The translations under genes were made by a program, and so were the position numbers. The notes below the pieces were generated by a model. The model ran no database searches, had not been told where the DNA came from, and saw only the letters and a list, made by a program, of their open reading frames with translations. This document shows positions 3,391 through 47,981 of a stretch of 56,764 nucleotides of DNA, in pieces (position 1 is the first letter of the stretch; each line of letters opens with the position of its first letter). This stretch comes from Aquificaceae bacterium (GTDB lineage: Bacteria > Aquificota > Aquificia > Aquificales > Aquificaceae): assembly GCA_025057455.1 (NCBI GenBank), contig JANWWY010000006.1, positions 1 to 56,764 of the forward strand, in the 5' to 3' direction.

Positions 3391-3409
3391 AAAACCTGAT
3401 TAAGGTTTT
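3391..3409 (-). terminator. Weak terminator-like hairpin at the end of murD
   Basis: AAAACCT (3391-3397) and AGGTTTT (3403-3409) form a 7-bp stem whose loop contains the murD stop codon. On the minus strand the downstream arm continues into a short T run. The stem is short and AT-rich, so it is a candidate only. Confidence 0.3.
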
Positions 3410-4665
3410 GTAAGGCTATTTACATAATCCTTAAACCTATTCCCTCTGTCCTTGTAATCTTTAAACATATCAAAGGAGGCACAGGCTGGAGAGAAGAGAA
3501 GCACATCGCCGGGCACTGCCCTGTCAAAAGCCATGCTGACTGCATCCTCTAAGTCTCTTGCAAGGTAGACTTGACACCCTTGCCATGCCTTGGCTATTTT
3601 TTCCTTTGCCTCACCTATGAGCACGCAAGACTTTGTCTTTCTCTTTACAAGTTCCCTTATGCTCTCAAAGTCCCCACCTTTATCCCTTCCACCTGCGATT
3701 AGCACTACTTTCCCGTCCTCAAAGCTTTCAAGGGCTGATTTTAAGGCATTTACCGTGGTGGACTTTGAGTCGTTGTAAACCTGCACGCCGTTGAAAATGC
3801 CCAAGTATTCCATTCTGTGAGGAAGTCCTGCAAAACTGTAGAGGACATCCCTTATGATTTCTAAGGGTACTTGCATAAGTCTCGCTATTGCACTGGCAAA
3901 AAGAGCATTCTGCCAGTTGTGCCTTCCCCTTATCTTTAGCTTTTCTACTTCAAAAAGCTCTTCACCGAGAAAGTAAGCCCTGCCGTTGTTTATATAGCCA
4001 TGCTTTCCTTCCTCAAGAAGGTAGAACTTTTTAGCCTTGCTCTCCGTCTTACTTACCCTTTCATCCGAGGCGTTCAGTAGCAGAAAGTCTTCTTCCCCCT
4101 GCCTTGAGAAGATGTTCCTCTTACTCCAGAGGTAATCATCCATACTCCCGTGCCAGTCAAGATGGTCCTCAGAAATGTTAAGAAAAGCTCCTATATGAGG
4201 TTTGAAGGTCTTTAGCGTCTTCCCTTGAAAGGAGGAGACTTCAAGCACCGCAAGACAAGAAGGATTCCTCAACACTATTTGAGAGAGTGGGATACCAGCA
4301 TTGGCACCTTCTTCCACATTAGCATAAAACTCTCTTAGCATGAGGTATGTTAGTCTTGTGGTTGTTGATTTTCCATCGGTACCAGTTATGGCAATGGCTT
4401 TACCGCTGAAAAACCTCCAAGCGAGCTCTAACTCCCCTATAACTTCCAGTCCTCTCCTTTCCGCTTCTTTCCACAGAGAATGATGGGGAGGTATGCCAGG
4501 TGATAGGACAACCATATCCACGAGGTTTATGTATTCTTCAAACCTATCGCCCTCTGCATCGTCCCCTGCATAGACCTCAAAGCCCTTCGCCTTTAAAAGC
4601 TGGACCGCAGCCTTACCACTTACACCAAGACCCCAGACAAGAACCTTTTTCATTAGACTAAACAT
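3400..4665 (-). CDS. murD: UDP-N-acetylmuramoylalanine-D-glutamate ligase
   Basis: Cytoplasmic Mur ligase that adds D-Glu to UDP-MurNAc-L-Ala. It has an N-terminal UMAG-binding Rossmann domain (VWGLGVSGKAAVQLL), a central ATPase with P-loop TGTDGKSTTTRL near residue 95, the HLDWHGSMDDY motif, and a C-terminal domain beginning near AGLPHRMEYLG with YNDSKSTTVNA. It follows mrdA by 4 nt, as the last gene of the mre operon. Two starts are possible: ATG 4665 (MFSLMKK) and ATG 4653 (MKKVLVWG). AAGGA lies 11 nt before the first. The second matches the family N-terminus better. Confidence 0.93.
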   Translation of the reverse strand: MFSLMKKVLVWGLGVSGKAAVQLLKAKGFEVYAGDDAEGDRFEEYINLVDMVVLSPGIPPHHSLWKEAERRGLEVIGELELAWRFFSGKAIAITGTDGKSTTTRLTYLMLREFYANVEEGANAGIPLSQIVLRNPSCLAVLEVSSFQGKTLKTFKPHIGAFLNISEDHLDWHGSMDDYLWSKRNIFSRQGEEDFLLLNASDERVSKTESKAKKFYLLEEGKHGYINNGRAYFLGEELFEVEKLKIRGRHNWQNALFASAIARLMQVPLEIIRDVLYSFAGLPHRMEYLGIFNGVQVYNDSKSTTVNALKSALESFEDGKVVLIAGGRDKGGDFESIRELVKRKTKSCVLIGEAKEKIAKAWQGCQVYLARDLEDAVSMAFDRAVPGDVLLFSPACASFDMFKDYKDRGNRFKDYVNSLTKP

Positions 4666-4669
4666 TCTA

Positions 4670-6436
4670 TCAAAGTTCCTTGTGGATGCCTTCCATGTAT
4701 ATTCTTTCCAATATTTTCCTTGCTATGGGTGCTGCAGCGGAGCCTCCAGAGCCTCCATGCTCCACCAACACGCCTATGACAAAAATGGGGTCTCTGTAGG
4801 GTGCAAACCCTACAAACCAAGCATGGTCCCTTAGATGATAGGGAAGGTGCTTTCTTCTTGCACTGATAGCTGATACTTGAGCGGTTCCAGTTTTTCCGGC
4901 TATCTCTACGATTTTAGAGTTTGCAGTGGTAGCGGTGCCAGCCCTCACCACATCCCTTAGAGCTTCTCTCACCATGGCAAAGTGCTCTGGCTTAGCTCTT
5001 ACAAGCTTGTATACGCTCTTGGTCGCTCTCCAGATTACGTTGCCCTGGGCGTCCCTTTTTTCTTTTATCAGCAGAGGTCTGTATATGACGCCGTTGTTGG
5101 CTATGGCCATCATCATAAGGGTTTGTTCAAAAAGGGTAGATTTCATAAAGCCCTGACCTATGGACATGTTTACCGTGTCGCCCCCATACCACGGTTCCCT
5201 TAATCTGTTTCTCTTCCACTCGGGTGTGGGTATAAAACCAGATGAGAGAGGTAGGTCAAAGGGAATTTTCTCACCGTAAGAAAACTGTCTTAAAAATCTT
5301 TCCATTTCTCTTGGACCAAGCTTGTAATAACCATTCTGATAAAAGTAAACATCGCAGGAATCTTTTATGGCTTCGTGAAGGTTTACCCATCCATGACCCG
5401 ACCTGTGCCAGCAGAAAAACTCCCTGTTTCCAAGCTCAAAACTCCCCCTGCACAACACACTTTCCCTTGAAGAAACTCCCTTTTCAAGCAAAGCCATACC
5501 AAGAGCGGGCTTAATAACGGAGGCTGGTGGGTACTTGGCATGAGTCACCCTATTAAAAAGGGGTCTAAGCTTGTCCTCGTTATACTGTTGCCAAAGCTGG
5601 GATATGTTATTGGGGTCAAAGGTAGGATAGCTTAGCAGACAGAGCACTTCACCAGTTCTTGCATCCAGTATAAGCACGCCCCCGGCCTTGTGCCCAGATT
5701 CCCTGAAAACCTCATAGGCTATCTTCTGCACCCTCACGTCTATAGTGGTTACTATAGTTTTTCCCTTTTCTGGCTCTGTATAACCCAATTTGCCCGTTAT
5801 GCGACCGACTGCATTTACCATAACCTCTTCCGTCCCTATCCTACCCAAAAGGTCATCATCAAAAGCCCTCTCTATGGCAAACATACCCACCAAACTCTGT
5901 GGTCCTATCCTGCTTCCATACTTTTTTAATAGGGACTCATCTGGATAGCTCACATACCCAACCGTATGCGCACACATATCACCGTAGGGGTAGTACCTTG
6001 TGGGCAAGATGTTTATAAAAACACCAGGAAGTTTATAACTGTGATTGTAAAACTTGTCTATGTCCTCCTGGCTTTTAAGCTCGGTGAGTATTATGGGTTC
6101 TATTGCTTTTCTCTTCCTTATGCTTTCATAATCAAGCTCGACACCAAATAGGTCTTTTAGGTTTTCAATCACATCCTTCAGGTCTGCACTGTACTGTAGC
6201 TTTTGGTGGTCAAGGAGTAGCATATACCTCGGGACATCATAAGCCAACCTCTCCCCATTCCTGTCCAGTATGTCCCCCCTTTGAGGATATATAACTCTCC
6301 TTCTTACGTAGTTTCTTTGGGCAAGCTCCTTGTAGTGCTTTCCCCTTACTATCTGAAGATAGAAGAGTCTTGCTATAACCACAAAGTAGGCAATAAAACC
6401 TAAAAAAATCAGAAAAAGAAACCTCCTTCTGTTCAT
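4670..6436 (-). CDS. mrdA: Penicillin-binding protein 2 (elongasome transpeptidase)
   Basis: Class B PBP that crosslinks peptidoglycan during rod elongation. It has an N-terminal membrane anchor (about 5-24) and a pedestal domain starting at YVRRRVIYPQRGDILDRNG. The transpeptidase domain contains the Ser-x-x-Lys tetrad in YPPASVIKP, an SCD triad in the SxN position, and KTGTAQ. Length (588 aa) is near normal. The start overlaps the mreD stop by 4 nt. The position between mreD and murD fits PBP2 rather than the septal enzyme FtsI. No RodA gene is in the window. Confidence 0.93.
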   Translation of the reverse strand: MNRRRFLFLIFLGFIAYFVVIARLFYLQIVRGKHYKELAQRNYVRRRVIYPQRGDILDRNGERLAYDVPRYMLLLDHQKLQYSADLKDVIENLKDLFGVELDYESIRKRKAIEPIILTELKSQEDIDKFYNHSYKLPGVFINILPTRYYPYGDMCAHTVGYVSYPDESLLKKYGSRIGPQSLVGMFAIERAFDDDLLGRIGTEEVMVNAVGRITGKLGYTEPEKGKTIVTTIDVRVQKIAYEVFRESGHKAGGVLILDARTGEVLCLLSYPTFDPNNISQLWQQYNEDKLRPLFNRVTHAKYPPASVIKPALGMALLEKGVSSRESVLCRGSFELGNREFFCWHRSGHGWVNLHEAIKDSCDVYFYQNGYYKLGPREMERFLRQFSYGEKIPFDLPLSSGFIPTPEWKRNRLREPWYGGDTVNMSIGQGFMKSTLFEQTLMMMAIANNGVIYRPLLIKEKRDAQGNVIWRATKSVYKLVRAKPEHFAMVREALRDVVRAGTATTANSKIVEIAGKTGTAQVSAISARRKHLPYHLRDHAWFVGFAPYRDPIFVIGVLVEHGGSGGSAAAPIARKILERIYMEGIHKEL

Positions 6437-6879
6437 ACCACCTTACTATACCGCCTTAGAAATACAGCAAGAGTAATCCATTCAATAAAAAATCCAAGCA
6501 GGGCAAGCCAGAGGTTAAACTCCAAGTAATACCTTGACCTAAAAATTACAACCGTCCAAAGCCTCTCAAGAATGGAAAGAAAGATGTATACTAAAACAAC
6601 GGACAATCTACTGGGAAAATGGTATCTTTGCTTCACAAAATTCAATCCTATGGTGAAAAAAACATATCCAGAAAGGTGAAGACCAAAGGAATCTTGAAAA
6701 AGGTCCAAGAAAAAACCAGATGGTAGAGCTTTCTTTAACCCATAATCTTCTTCGTTTAAAAGATTTAGAAACAGGTAAACCAATAAAAGATTAGGCACTA
6801 GAAGAGCATTTTGAAAAACTGCTAATAGCACAGAACTCTGAAAGTAAGCAATTAGAAAGGAAAAAAGGTAAAACCTCAT
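6433..6879 (-). CDS. mreD: Rod shape-determining protein MreD
   Basis: Small polytopic membrane protein of the elongasome. At 148 aa it has about five hydrophobic helices (around 1-18, 22-42, 50-66, 70-95 and 115-140) and little soluble sequence. Identification rests on topology, size and its place between mreC and mrdA, because MreD sequences diverge strongly. It overlaps both neighbours by 4 nt. Confidence 0.85.
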   Translation of the reverse strand: MRFYLFSFLIAYFQSSVLLAVFQNALLVPNLLLVYLFLNLLNEEDYGLKKALPSGFFLDLFQDSFGLHLSGYVFFTIGLNFVKQRYHFPSRLSVVLVYIFLSILERLWTVVIFRSRYYLEFNLWLALLGFFIEWITLAVFLRRYSKVV

Positions 6880-7664
6880 AGCTTTTCCTTGATAACTATG
6901 CAGAAATACAGTTTCCTTATATCTGAGAAGGGTTTGACCTTCACACTTTTGAAAAAGCTTCCGCCCTCTTGCGATACACTGTGAACTGTGCCTATGACCA
7001 GCTGTGGAAAATACTTGCCTGGTACCCTAAGGAATACGGAATCTCCTTCCCTGATGGGGTCCTCCAAGTTTACATGGAGAAGAGAACCATACGGATAACC
7101 GCCCCTGTATATGTATGCCTTCTCCCCAGAAACAGCACTTATGGAAAAATCCCCAGAAAATACTGTTCTTACACGAGAAGACCCACCGTACACCTTGTCC
7201 ACTATACCTACCAAATGGCTACCGTGGAAAACCACCATACCTTCTTCAATTCCAGCATCCTGACCTCTGTCTATTAGTATAAAGGTCTCGTTACCCGACG
7301 GGTCATAGGCTATAACGTGGGCATATAGAATAGGGTAGCTCTTTATGTTCTGGCTAAGGTTTATTGTGTTGCTGAGAGCAGTAAGGTTGCTTTCGCAAGC
7401 ATGAAGCTGACTTTTGTAAAGAGCACAAGCTTGAAGCTGGCGCTTTAGTCTTTGATTCTCTAAGCTTACATCTTTGAGAAATACGTAAACTTCAAAAAAA
7501 TGTCTCGTCCTATCTACCAAGACCCCTTTTAACTCAAAAAGAGGTTGTATAACCTGTTTAGTGAGACTGTATACACTTTCAAAAAAGGGAAGTGCTGAGA
7601 GATTTATAAAGTACAATATTAGACTGATAAACAGAGCAAGGACTGCTAAAGCATGTCTTTTCAT
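6876..7664 (-). CDS. mreC: Rod shape-determining protein MreC
   Basis: Bitopic protein linking the MreB filament to periplasmic PBP2. The 262-aa protein has one N-terminal membrane helix (about 5-24) and a coiled coil (about 60-100). Its two-lobed beta domain contains the family motifs DRGQDAGIEEGMVV, LVGIVDKVYGGSSRVRT and IREGDSVF. It overlaps mreB by 4 nt upstream and mreD by 4 nt downstream. Confidence 0.9.
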   Translation of the reverse strand: MKRHALAVLALFISLILYFINLSALPFFESVYSLTKQVIQPLFELKGVLVDRTRHFFEVYVFLKDVSLENQRLKRQLQACALYKSQLHACESNLTALSNTINLSQNIKSYPILYAHVIAYDPSGNETFILIDRGQDAGIEEGMVVFHGSHLVGIVDKVYGGSSRVRTVFSGDFSISAVSGEKAYIYRGGYPYGSLLHVNLEDPIREGDSVFLRVPGKYFPQLVIGTVHSVSQEGGSFFKSVKVKPFSDIRKLYFCIVIKEKL

Positions 7665-8692
7665 GCCATGGCAACTTTTCTTATAAGGTCTATGTTATCA
7701 AGCACCTTACCTACACCTTTGGCAACTGCGGTTATTGGGTCTTCACAGTAGTGAGTTTTTATACCTGTTTCCCTCTCTATTCTTATGTGGAGGTTTCTAA
7801 GCAAGGATCCACCACCGGCGAGGGTTATGCCCCTGTCCGCTATGTCCGAAGCAAGCTCCGGTGGCGTTCTTTCTAAGGTGGACCTTATGGCGTTAATCAC
7901 GGAGGCTACTACATCCTCTAAAGCTTCTGTCACATCTCTGTTACTTATCTTGATTACCTTTGGCAGTCCCGTTATGTCCCTGCCACGTACCTCTATAAAC
8001 CTTTCCTCTTCCTCATATATGGCACTACCCAACTCTATTTTTGCCTTCTCTGCTGTTTGTTCTCCTATCAGGAGGTGATGTTTTTTCTTCACATGCTGAA
8101 TTATGGCTTCCGTCATTTCATCCCCTGCTACCCTTATAGAATTGGAAACCACTATACCGGCAAGAGATATAACCGCTATTTCCGTAGTTCCACCGCCTAT
8201 GTCCACTATCATGTTGCCCACTGGTTCCTCTATGGGAAGGCCTGCACCTATGGCTGCAGCCATGGGCTCCGCAATTAGATAAACCTCTCTGGCACCAGCA
8301 CTTCTTGCTGCATCTATGACCGCTCTCTTTTCCACCTGCGTAACGCCAGAGGGTACACCTATAACCACCCTGGGCTTTGCCTTGAAGATACTTCCGCCTA
8401 TCGCCTTGTTTATAAAGTATGACAGCATAACCTTCGTGGCTTCAAAGTCCGTTATAACACCATCTCTAAGAGGTCTAACCGTCTGTATGTTTTCTGGGGT
8501 TTTTCCGAGCATTTCCTTGGCTTCCCTTCCCACAGCCAGCACTCTCCCACTTTTTATGTCTATTGCCACTATAGAGGGCTCATAAAGCACTATCCCTTTT
8601 CCCTGCGAATAGACAACGGTGTTCGCTGTTCCGAGGTCTATCCCAATATTGTTTGAGACAAAACCAAGAAGATTTGCTAATTTGTTTAACAT
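7661..8692 (-). CDS. mreB: Rod shape-determining actin homologue MreB
   Basis: Actin-fold ATPase that guides lateral wall synthesis. The 343-aa protein begins with a short amphipathic helix, then NNIGIDLGTANTVVY (phosphate 1 loop) near residue 14. It has VDIGGGTTEIAVIS (phosphate 2) near 165 and ITLAGGGSLLRNL (adenosine motif) near 290. It is the first gene of mreB-mreC-mreD-mrdA-murD. TATAAT ends 7 nt before its ATG, and only 17 bp separate it from the divergent spoT start, so the two promoters overlap. AAGG directly abuts the ATG, too close to act as a Shine-Dalgarno. Confidence 0.95.
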   Translation of the reverse strand: MLNKLANLLGFVSNNIGIDLGTANTVVYSQGKGIVLYEPSIVAIDIKSGRVLAVGREAKEMLGKTPENIQTVRPLRDGVITDFEATKVMLSYFINKAIGGSIFKAKPRVVIGVPSGVTQVEKRAVIDAARSAGAREVYLIAEPMAAAIGAGLPIEEPVGNMIVDIGGGTTEIAVISLAGIVVSNSIRVAGDEMTEAIIQHVKKKHHLLIGEQTAEKAKIELGSAIYEEEERFIEVRGRDITGLPKVIKISNRDVTEALEDVVASVINAIRSTLERTPPELASDIADRGITLAGGGSLLRNLHIRIERETGIKTHYCEDPITAVAKGVGKVLDNIDLIRKVAMA

Positions 8693-8709
8693 CCTTAATA
8701 TTATAAACT
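8693..8709. promoter_or_regulatory. Overlapping divergent promoters of mreB and spoT
   Basis: The whole 17-bp gap is a near-palindrome. On the minus strand TATAAT (8705-8700) ends 7 nt before the mreB ATG. On the plus strand TATTAT (8699-8704) ends 5 nt before the spoT ATG. The two -10 hexamers occupy the same base pairs, any -35 elements would lie inside the opposite gene, and both mRNAs would be leaderless. Confidence 0.55.
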
Positions 8710-10803
8710 ATGGAAACTCTCGCAGGTAAAAAGTTAGAAGAGAGACTATTCAGACTTTTGGGAGCGGAGGATGAACTTGTAAGAAAAGCCCTTGAGTTTA
8801 TAGAAGAAAAGCATTCAGGCCAGTATAGGAAATCTGGCGAGCCTTATGTAGTCCATCCCATTGAAGTTGCTATTATCCTTGCGGAGCTCCAGCTAGATAA
8901 GGCTACTGTTGTAGCTGGACTTTTGCACGATGTGTTAGAAGACACAGATACCACGTACGATGAAATCAAGAAAAGCTTCGGTAAAGAAATTGCGGATATA
9001 GTGGAAGGGGTTACTAAACTGGGTAAAATTCATTTCAAGGACCTTCAGACCCATAAGGCGGAAAACTATAGAAAGTTGGTCCTTGCCTTTTCTAGAGACC
9101 TTAGGGTTATCTTCGTAAAGCTTGCGGACAGGCTTCACAACATGAAAACTCTACAGTGCTTTGGTAGGGAAAAGCAGATAAGAATAGCAAGGGAAACTTT
9201 AGAAATCTATGTGCCTATAGCTAACAGATTGGGACTGTGGAAGGTAAAGACAGAACTTGAAGACCTTTGCTTTATGCACCTGTATCCAAAAGAATACGAG
9301 GAAGTAAAGAGTTTTGTAGGTAGAAGCAGGAAGGAGTTAGAGGATTACCTTAAGAGAGTTTTTATCCCCAAACTTAAAGAGGAGCTAAAGAGGTCAAACA
9401 TACAAGCCTATGTCACCTACAGACCTAAACATCTGTTTGGTATATGGCAAAAGACCCTACGTAAAGGCATAAGATTGGAAGATGTGCACGATGTTCTGGG
9501 TGTGAGGTTAATTGTAAACACTGTGCAGGAATGTTACTTGGTTCTCGGTTTAGTCCATAGTATTTTTACGCCTGTGCCTGGAAAGTTTGATGACTATATA
9601 TCCCTACCAAAACCTAACCTTTACCAGTCTCTGCATACCGCTGTAATAGGTCCAAAGGGTAAGATGGTAGAGGTTCAAATAAGAACCTGGGAAATGCACG
9701 AAAGGGCTGAGAAGGGTATAGCAGCCCATTGGGCATACAAGGAAGGAAAGAGGGCTGCAGAGAGTGGAGTATACTCATGGCTAAAGGGGCTTGTGGAAAG
9801 CGTACAGGGAAGTAAGAACGCCGAAGAACTGCTGGAAAATCTTAAGCTTGAACTGTTCTCAGAGGAGGTTTTCGTCTTTACTCCAAAGGGTGACCTCATA
9901 GTGCTTCCAAAGGGTGCAACGCCCGTGGATTTTGCTTACCATATACACACGGAGGTTGGAAACCACTGTACGGGTGCAAAGGTAAACGGCAGGATAGTAC
10001 CCCTTAATTACAAACTTCAAAACGGTGATATGGTGGAGATTATTACAAGTCCCAACAAAAAGCCAAACCCTGAATGGCTTAACTTTGTGGTCACATCAAA
10101 GGCAAAGAGCAAGATAAAGGCAGTCATAAAGGAACTTGAGAGGGAAAGACACCTGCAAATAGGAAGGGAAAGGCTTGAACTTTATTCGCAAAAGCTGGGT
10201 ATAGAAAGGTTGGCACTTATAAAGAAACTCTCAGAAGAAACTGGTATAAAATCCGATGAGGAGATTTTTCTCCTTTTAGGCAGTGGGAAGCTTTCAAAGG
10301 AAAAGGTCTTTTCCCTCTTTAGAAAAACCCATAAGGAAAAATCCCAGGAAAAGGTAGAGGATGTTCTTCATATTGATGGGCTCGGCAACGTGCTTCACAG
10401 CCTTGCACAATGTTGCAATCCTTTGCCGGGTGAGGAAGTTTACGGTATCATCTCAAGAGGAAAGGGGCTCATTATACACTCAAAGGACTGTCCTAATCTT
10501 TCACACCTTTTAAAGGTATCCCCAGAAAAGGTTATAAAAGTTCTTTGGAACAAAGCACAGGGGCTTCATCCAGTAAGGCTTAGGCTTTTGGTAAAGGACA
10601 GGATGGGAATTTTAGCAGAAGTGACTTCAACCATAGCAAAGTTAGACTCTAACATAACAGAGGCGAGGACAAAGAGCCTTCCTTCAGGACAAGCTCTGAT
10701 GGACTTTACCCTTCAGGTGGAAGACTACAAGAGCTTTCAAAGGATAAGGGAAGCCCTCCAAAGTTTGGAGGGCGTGGAAGAGGTTCAGAGGCTCATGGGT
10801 TGA
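8710..10803 (+). CDS. spoT: Bifunctional (p)ppGpp synthetase/hydrolase (Rel/SpoT)
   Basis: Controls the stringent-response alarmone. Domain order in 697 aa: HD hydrolase (about 30-170) with the catalytic [10 protein letters not shown]; synthetase (about 210-345) with [20 protein letters not shown] and [11 protein letters not shown] (about 385-445) from [18 protein letters not shown]; a helical/zinc-finger region with [14 protein letters not shown]; and a C-terminal ACT domain (about 620-697). Both catalytic centres look intact, as expected for a single long RSH enzyme. No second RSH gene is in the window. The start was chosen because the family's N-terminus lies just here. It overlaps the clpB 3' end by 19 nt. 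Confidence 0.94.
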
Positions 10804-23313: not shown

Positions 23314-23319
23314 CCACAT

Positions 23320-23336
23320 GCTATAATAAGGATTTT
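23320..23336. promoter_or_regulatory. Overlapping divergent promoters of GT9 and SPOUT genes
   Basis: Plus-strand TATAAT (23322-23327) ends 9 nt before ATG 23337. Minus-strand TATTAT (23328-23323) ends 9 nt before ATG 23313. The -10 hexamers share five base pairs. Confidence 0.5.
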
Positions 23337-45944: not shown

Positions 45945-46550
45945 CTATTTTAGCATCTTAAGGAGCTCCAGCAGTCTTCTGAGTGCCTTTCCTCTGTGCG
46001 ATATTTTGTCCTTCTCCTCTGGCCTTAGCTCCGCCATAGTTTTTGTGTAGCCCTCAGGCTGGAAGATAGGGTCATACCCAAAACCGCCTTCACCTCTTGG
46101 CTCATAGGTTATTGACCCGTCGCACCTGCCCTCCGCCCAAAGACCCCAGTCACCTGCGTAGACCAAAACACAGGCAAAGAAGTAGGCACTCCTGTCTTCT
46201 ACACCTTCCATGAGCCTTAGGACCTTCTTTATGTTAGCCATGTCCCTTGTAGTTTCCACAGGTTCTTGTCCTCCCCAAGATAGGCTGTAGAACCTACTGG
46301 AGTATATACCAGGATAGCCGTCAAGGGCAGGAATTACAAGACCAGAGTCGTCCGCAAAGGTAGGTATGCCATAGACTTCATAGTAAGCCTTTGCCTTTAG
46401 GTAGGCATTTTCTAAGAAGCTTAGACCCTTTTCCTCCACCTGCAGGCTCTGGTCAGCAATTAGAATTTCTATCCCAGAACCTTCAAAAAGCCTCTTTATC
46501 TCTCTGACTTTCCCCTCGCTTGTGGTGGCAAGTAGTAGTTTATTTAGCAT
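45945..46550 (-). CDS. rdgB: XTP/dITP pyrophosphatase (RdgB/HAM1)
   Basis: Removes non-canonical purine nucleotides from the pool. The roughly 201-aa protein has [48 protein letters not shown] in part ([18 protein letters not shown] is the metal/active region), and [23 protein letters not shown]. An upstream ATG (46601) would overlap gatB. ATG 46550 is preferred because it fits the family N-terminus and has TATAAT 6 nt upstream. Confidence 0.93.
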
Positions 46551-46565
46551 GCTAAAATTATAAGC
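46551..46565. promoter_or_regulatory. Overlapping divergent promoters of rdgB and gatB
   Basis: Plus-strand TAAAAT (46553-46558) ends 7 nt before the gatB ATG. Minus-strand TATAAT (46562-46557) ends 6 nt before the rdgB ATG 46550. At 15 bp this is the shortest divergent gap in the window. Confidence 0.5.
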
Positions 46566-47981
46566 ATGGAGTTTGAACCAGTAATAGGTCTTGAAATACA
46601 CGTGCAGATGGATACAAAAACCAAGATGTTCTGTGCCTGCCCCGTGGAGTTTGGCGCAGAACCTAATACAAACGTATGTCCAGTATGTCTTGGACTGCCG
46701 GGAAGTTTACCTGTGATAAACAAAAGGGCTGTAGAGTTTGCGGTAAGAGCTGCCCTTGCCCTAAATTGTAAAATAAACACTCGTTCCCTGTTTGCCAGAA
46801 AAAACTACTTCTATCCAGACCTCCCAAAGGGTTATCAAATATCACAGTACGAAGAGCCTTTGGCTGTGGATGGGTGGCTGGAAGTTGAAAATAAAAAGGT
46901 TCGCATAAGAAGACTGCACATAGAAGAGGACGCAGGCAAAAACATACACGAAGGCTCAAAAACCTTTGTGGACCTTAACCGTGCGGGAACACCCCTTATG
47001 GAAATTGTAACGGAGCCTGACATAGATTCACCACAAATGGCAAGGGAGTTTCTTGAGAAGCTCAGAAACATAATGAGATACACGGGAGTATCCCGCGCAG
47101 ACATGGAAAAGGGTCAACTTCGCTGCGATATAAACCTATCTATAAGACCAAAGGGTTCAAAGGAGCTTGGAACAAGGGTGGAAATAAAAAACGTCAACTC
47201 CTTCAGGTTTGTGCAGAAGGCTATTGAGGCTGAAATGGAGCGTCAGATAAAACTAATCCTATCTGGTGAGAAGGTGGTGCAAGAGACAAGAACCTTTGAC
47301 CCCTCAACGGGACTTACACACCCTATGAGAACGAAAGAAGAAGCTGAGGACTATCGTTATTTTCCAGACCCAGACCTTCTACCTCTTGTCCTATCCGAAC
47401 AGTGGATAGAAGAAATAAGAAAAAGCATGCCAGAACTACCAGAACAGAGGTACGAGCGGTTTGTAAGGGATTACCGCTTAGAAGCCTACTCCGCAAAAGT
47501 CCTAACGGACAACAAGGAGCTTGGAGATTTCTTTGAAGAATCCTTAAAATACTATGACCAAGACCCTCAACTTACAGCCAATTGGCTATTGAATGACCTT
47601 CTTGGAAACCTCTCGGAAGTTTCCAAGGATATTGAAAGTTCTCCCGTTAACCCCAAGGCTTTAGCAGAGCTCGTAAGGCTCATAAAAGAAGGGGTGCTAT
47701 CCTCAAAGCTGGCAAAGGAAGTCCTCAAGGTTATGGTTTCTACGGGTAAAGAGCCGTTGCAGGTTGTAGAAGAGAAGGGACTAAGACAGGTCAGCGACGA
47801 AGCAACCATAAAGGGTATGATTGAAGAGGTACTGAAAGAAAACGCAAAAGAAGTAGAGAGATACCGTTCGGGGGAGGAGAAGGTGTTTGGATTTCTCGTA
47901 GGGCAGGTAATGAAGAAGGCAAAAGGAAAGGCAAACCCTCAGCTTGTAAACAAGCTCCTCAGAGAAATGCTCGCTACATGA
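46566..47981 (+). CDS. gatB: Asp/Glu-tRNA amidotransferase subunit B
   Basis: Part of GatCAB, which amidates misacylated Glu-tRNA(Gln) and Asp-tRNA(Asn). The 471-aa protein starts [20 protein letters not shown]. It has the zinc cysteines in [13 protein letters not shown] and [31 protein letters not shown], the [17 protein letters not shown] motif, and a C-terminal helical YqeY-like tail domain. gatA and gatC are not in the window. Confidence 0.95.

Follow-up and report, generated by a model that had tools for sequence, protein, structure and literature searches.

A 17-bp mreB–spoT spacer in Aquificaceae as a candidate bidirectional promoter, probably leaderless in both directions

Introduction

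Bidirectional promoters of an 18-bp class have already been reported in bacteria, in which two -10 elements overlap with a one-bp offset between their hexamers and carry reciprocal -7T/-11A positions (PMC10268837; PMC12825309). Leaderless genes, marked by a TA-like signal approximately 12 bp before the start, have likewise been reported in Aquificae, where, in the part of the survey drawn on here, they were detected in two of five genomes and make up 20.7–32.4% of the genes there (PMC3160421). In the dRNA-seq study of A. aeolicus, which reports ncRNAs, a search of the main text found no discussion of leaderless genes. Divergent promoters with overlapping polymerase sites, and therefore coupled firing, are also known from the EcoRV and CfrBI restriction–modification systems (PMC5333194).

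The 17-bp spacer between the divergent genes mreB and spoT of an Aquificaceae genome resembles each of these systems in part. With the 18-bp class of Warman and Grainger it has in common pseudo-symmetrical overlapping -10 elements with little or no -35 element, and both often sit between divergent protein genes; it differs in that the predicted transcription starts coincide with the start codons, which would leave no leaders and an intergenic region consisting of the -10 alone. Members of this class in E. coli have been described with regulators (e.g., SoxR, MarA, and AcrR), unlike mreB/spoT (PMC12825309; PMC10268837). A TATAAT-type box about 11–13 bp before the start, the phylum, and the lack of a Shine–Dalgarno sequence are shared with leaderless genes in the portion of the survey used here, which has A. 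aeolicus among its examples and scores single genes rather than two leaderless genes on one box (PMC3160421). The EcoRV and CfrBI promoters differ in their C-protein control, in the leadered C transcript of EcoRV, and in their unrelated genes, whereas no regulator is known for mreB/spoT (PMC5333194). Our literature search found no paper that treats two leaderless genes on one -10 element as a class, and we regard the novelty of such a class as provisional.

Materials and Methods

The window is the whole stretch of 56,764 nt that was analyzed, part of a draft MAG (G000; 1.42 Mb, 66 contigs) of the Aquificaceae, a heat-loving group. Related loci were taken from records named Aquificaceae, Hydrogenobacter, Thermocrinis, and Aquifex. 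Thirteen other genomes were used for comparison within the genus, 11 of which contain the spoT start, and loci on contigs already within the G-numbered genomes were counted once. Divergent gene pairs were surveyed in 273 kb of the window genome and in 400 kb from each of four further genomes, two of them congeners (G006 and G013) and two from other genera (G022 and G018), with genes and starts called by a simple caller of our own.

Results and Discussion

Organization of the mreB/spoT Locus

Family matches place mreB at the head of an operon-like run on the minus strand (mreB, mreC-like, mreD-like, PBP2, and murD) and a RelA/SpoT gene on the plus strand (Table 1), in agreement with the identities given in a preliminary description of this DNA, which had been made from the letters alone. 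A domain search of G000 found one gene with a RelA_SpoT domain, consistent with the single (p)ppGpp synthetase/hydrolase that had been proposed. Positions 8690–8712 read directly as CAT-CCTTAATATTATAAACT-ATG, so that the A of the mreB ATG (8692, minus strand) and the A of the spoT ATG (8710, plus strand) are 18 bp apart. The sequence and the ORF coordinates thus agree with the 17-bp geometry described earlier, and the boxes TATAAT and TATTAT are superimposed as had been claimed. An in-frame stop lies a few bases upstream of each start codon, so these starts are the only ones available nearby.

Table 1. Coordinates of genes and of observed or predicted promoter features at the mreB/spoT locus (window positions).
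Feature	Position	Strand	Basis or remark
murD	3400–4665	-	TIGR01087 above cut-off
mrdA, penicillin-binding protein 2 (PBP2)	4670–6436	-	TIGR03423 above cut-off
mreD-like	6433–6879	-	TIGR03426, 29.3 bits, cut-off of 34.85 not reached
mreC-like, operon gene 2	6876–7664	-	Below curated cut-off, E 1.2e-43
mreB	7661–8692	-	NCBIfam TIGR00904/NF010539, Pfam MreB_Mbl
mreB codons 4–6 (AAA TTA GCA)	8675–8683	.	Synonymous positions nearly invariant; -27 to -35 from spoT start
Predicted mreB transcription start, at the A of ATG or the preceding G	8692–8693	-	TATAAT 7–8 bp upstream
Candidate shared core promoter, 17-bp intergenic spacer CCTTAATATTATAAACT	8693–8709	.	14 of 17 columns invariant in nine congeneric species
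Putative spoT -10, TATTAT (5/6)	8699–8704	+	ATG 5 nt away, as in each of the 11 linked species and G007
Putative mreB -10, TATAAT (6/6)	8700–8705	-	ATG 7 nt away; 6–8 nt in all 11 linked species
Predicted spoT transcription start, A of ATG	8710	+	TATTAT 6 bp upstream, no Shine–Dalgarno
spoT/rsh, bifunctional-type RelA/SpoT homologue	8710–10803	+	TIGR00691 above cut-off; HD_4, RelA_SpoT, TGS, ACT

The first T of the -10 box is located 13 bp before the ATG of mreB and 11 bp before that of spoT. A correctly spaced Shine–Dalgarno sequence is absent for both genes in the window and in the linked congeners that were checked; in the window species, AAGG abuts the mreB ATG at zero spacing. A consensus scan requiring a -35 element identified no promoter at the site and, in the 300 bp to each side of it, no two-hexamer promoter, and a search by eye for a -35 hexamer on both sides gave only poor matches at 19-bp spacing. 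By itself, the spacer is only mildly unusual compared with chance, being AT-rich: shuffling produced two opposed boxes as good as these at rates of 1.6% (mononucleotide) and 4.2% (dinucleotide).

A Candidate Bidirectional and Leaderless Promoter

At a probability of about 0.8, we favor the reading that the spacer is a bidirectional sigma70-type promoter, leaderless both ways, and one instance of an architecture generic to Aquificaceae; that mreB and spoT share a superimposed -10 element is well supported at the level of sequence. The nearly symmetrical AT core would present TATAAT towards mreB and TATTAT towards spoT, and polymerase may bind it in either orientation, singly, each transcript starting at, or 1–2 nt from, the A of its start codon. 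The whole intergenic region would then be the shared -10, and its length of 17 bp could be explained by the 18-bp distance between the starts of a symmetrical -10 combined with leaderless starts on both sides.

The register agrees exactly with that of the 18-bp class. With t = 8711, the plus hexamer occupies t-12 to t-7 and the minus hexamer t-11 to t-6, and the reciprocal -7T/-11A positions coincide at T8704 and A8700 (TATTAT on the plus and TATAAT on the minus strand). A T at -18 of each start, supplied by the A at the opposite +1, is present if transcription begins at 8710 and 8692 (T at 8692 on the plus strand and at 8710 on the minus strand) and is absent for 8711 and 8693. At the published optimum of 7 bp, spoT transcription would begin within the ATG, at 8711, and a 6-bp distance is therefore needed for 8710; this distance is the weakest point of the fit. 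Both genes carry a -10-like signal approximately 12 bp upstream, as leaderless genes do, and both mRNAs are probably leaderless, because the boxes lie 5–7 nt from the start codons without a properly spaced ribosome-binding site, a point that the preliminary description had overlooked.

Conservation Within the Genus

In 10 of the 11 testable congeners, mreB is the head-to-head neighbor of spoT. The spacer measures 17 bp in eight of these congeners and in the window, 16 bp in G002, and 18 bp in G012. Among the nine species with 17 bp, spacer columns 4–17 (TAATATTATAAACT) are invariant and columns 1–3 are free. Synonymous sites of the flanking genes are saturated among congeners while this core is invariant, only 1 of 46 four-fold sites in mreB (11 species) and 2 of 59 in spoT (nine species) being unchanged. 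The comparison with four-fold sites indicates that the arrangement of the boxes is non-accidental, and it is on conservation that the case rests.

The only invariant four-fold site of the mreB stretch examined falls in the patch of codons 4–6, of which codons 4 and 6 are identical in 11 of 11 species and codon 5 in 10 of 11. This patch may act on spoT as a weak upstream element, or it may reflect a 5′-end constraint on a leaderless mreB mRNA. A record titled Acidobacteria bacterium J001 (RFFP01000027.1; L005) also contains an Aquificaceae spoT/mreB region, with the same promoter core as the window and protein identities to it of 75 and 87%, respectively; the name of this record looks wrong.

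Separated and Looser Arrangements

Recurrence in related genomes, which had been proposed as a check on the arrangement, holds for most of the genus. In G007 the two genes lie apart, and they are likewise unlinked in G014, G022, and G023. In G007, spoT lies beside rplT and keeps TATTAT-AACCT-ATG. Its mreB has TATAAT 9 nt before the ATG and is head-to-head, across the 21-bp spacer AGAGCTTATAATACTATACGC, with a gene that has a Pfam class I synthetase match and was taken, from a reading of its sequence, as leucyl-tRNA-synthetase-like. In this spacer TATAAT faces mreB and TATTAT faces the other gene. In G022, TATAAT is found 7 nt before the mreB ATG. Each gene retains its own box after separation, and superposition is therefore required by neither.

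In the g6, g7, and g9 genomes and in Aquifex MAGs, the pair is head-to-head at a distance of 31–50 bp and mreB has a Shine–Dalgarno sequence, with GGAG-type ribosome-binding sites in g6, g7, and g9. Because the genera with longer spacers carry this mreB signal, the 17-bp form appears to go with the absence of an mreB leader; the direction of change is one that we infer. In three Aquifex MAG loci (L011, L012, and L014), a TATATT located 8–9 nt before the spoT ATG overlaps a TATAGT that faces the Shine–Dalgarno-led mreB, and L013 is similar, not identical. These four loci are read here as candidates for a related shared promoter.

Short Divergent Spacers in Aquificaceae Genomes

Across the genome samples, -10 boxes peak 6–10 nt before the starts of genes that come first in a transcription unit. 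A box is present at 31 of 72 divergent starts in the window genome, none of the 31 having a Shine–Dalgarno sequence, although this scarcity is partly forced because both signals use the same few bases. Spacers of 14–20 bp make up 27–29 of approximately 226–230 divergent pairs in the five Aquificaceae samples (about 12%), counts that shift by a few across three settings of the gene caller and include orthologous pairs recurring among the three congeneric samples. Boxes facing both ways occur in 24 of 27 to 25 of 29 of these short spacers, compared with a shuffle mean of 6.6–8.1 and a highest shuffle count of 16 (500 shuffles, any setting). The commonest divergent spacer is 17 bp (9 of 226 pairs, three of the nine being mreB/spoT orthologues), and no spacer of 0–11 bp was found among the 226 pairs. 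All 20 spacers of 21–27 bp contain TANNNTA cores (shuffle mean 5.4), which fits the idea of a shared promoter. The architecture of mreB/spoT is generic: unrelated housekeeping pairs in the sampled genomes share it.

Within the window, a 15-bp spacer (GCTAAAATTATAAGC, 46551–46565) separates a Ham1-family gene (45945–46550, minus strand) from gatB (46566–47981, plus strand), and a closely similar spacer, GCCTAAAATTATAAAGC, is present at L083:7665–7681. A 23-bp spacer (CCACATGCTATAATAAGGATTTT, 23314–23336) lies between genes for a member of the glycosyltransferase-9 family and a SAM-dependent RNA methyltransferase; in it, TATAAT on the plus strand overlaps TATTAT on the minus strand. In one version of the gene calls, putative overlapping start codons (e.g., CATG) were seen at L086:14684–14691 and L085:14322–14323, with TATAAT inside the opposite coding sequence.

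Alternative Explanations

The preliminary description went further and proposed a dedicated switch without a regulator, in which exclusive firing at the shared -10 would set reciprocal expression of mreB in growth and spoT in starvation. Its premise stands: because of the geometry of the boxes, two polymerases cannot occupy the site together and both directions cannot be used at once, the superimposed -10 giving steric exclusion (PMC12825309), and the pairing is kept in nearly all testable congeners and, with longer spacers, in several other genera. The switch itself does not follow from this geometry, and we consider it very unlikely. In published work on five bidirectional promoters of E. 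coli, loss of one direction left the other almost unchanged: basal firing was too low for competition to be more than negligible, and repression of one direction by the other required strong activation of one side (PMC12825309). Moreover, unrelated pairs such as Ham1-family/gatB use the same architecture, mreB has another partner in G007 and is unlinked from spoT in three further genomes, and a switch would also need a factor that biases direction. What remains of the proposal is a conserved, shared, superimposed -10 rather than a growth/starvation switch. A variant in which the shared -10 couples transcription of the elongasome and of the alarmone enzyme, the favored direction lowering the other, is just as doubtful; the bias could come from (p)ppGpp effects on polymerase at two different discriminators, and the locus would then link cell-wall growth to the stringent response by a feedback that needs no regulator.

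It is also conceivable, though unlikely, that one gene only uses the box and the other is transcribed with a longer leader from a promoter inside the coding sequence of its neighbor. The Shine–Dalgarno leader of mreB in several other Aquificaceae genera points this way, as does the -35-like synonymous patch on one side only; against it, both boxes are conserved at correct spacings, each accompanies its own gene where the two have separated, neither gene in this genus has a correctly spaced Shine–Dalgarno sequence, and the consensus scan of 300 bp to each side turned up no two-hexamer promoter. The AT palindrome TAATATTA (8696–8703), near-perfect in its symmetry and strongly conserved in nine species, might be thought chiefly or solely an operator, bound by a repressor or nucleoid protein, rather than a polymerase site. 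We judge this highly improbable, since L029 (GCATATTATA) no longer has an intact palindrome and L031 (CTATTATTATA) has a changed one, although both retain TATAAT and TATTAT, and other short spacers share the box-to-start distances and not the palindrome.

Significance

As a probable bidirectional leaderless promoter, mreB/spoT looks like compact genome design and not like a purpose-built growth/starvation switch. The architecture is probably a product of genome compaction in which both genes are expressed constitutively at a low level, and competition between polymerases, possible in principle, would probably be weak unless one direction were strongly activated. The locus would be a clear, conserved case of a divergent promoter close to the apparent minimum size, with one -10 and no leaders, and the genome samples suggest that approximately one in eight of the divergent pairs of Aquificaceae follows this design. 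If the starts are confirmed, genome compaction would link bidirectional promoters with leaderless translation, and a 17-bp rule could aid the annotation of divergent genes and the prediction of starts in the phylum. The predicted absence of leaders and of 5′-UTR regulation would also make this locus a clean test bed for polymerase competition.

At its 3′ end, spoT overlaps by 19 bp (10785–10803) with the gene that follows on the minus strand, judged by inspection to encode a ClpB-like ATPase, and this overlap, added to the short 5′ spacer, leaves spoT tightly boxed in at both ends.
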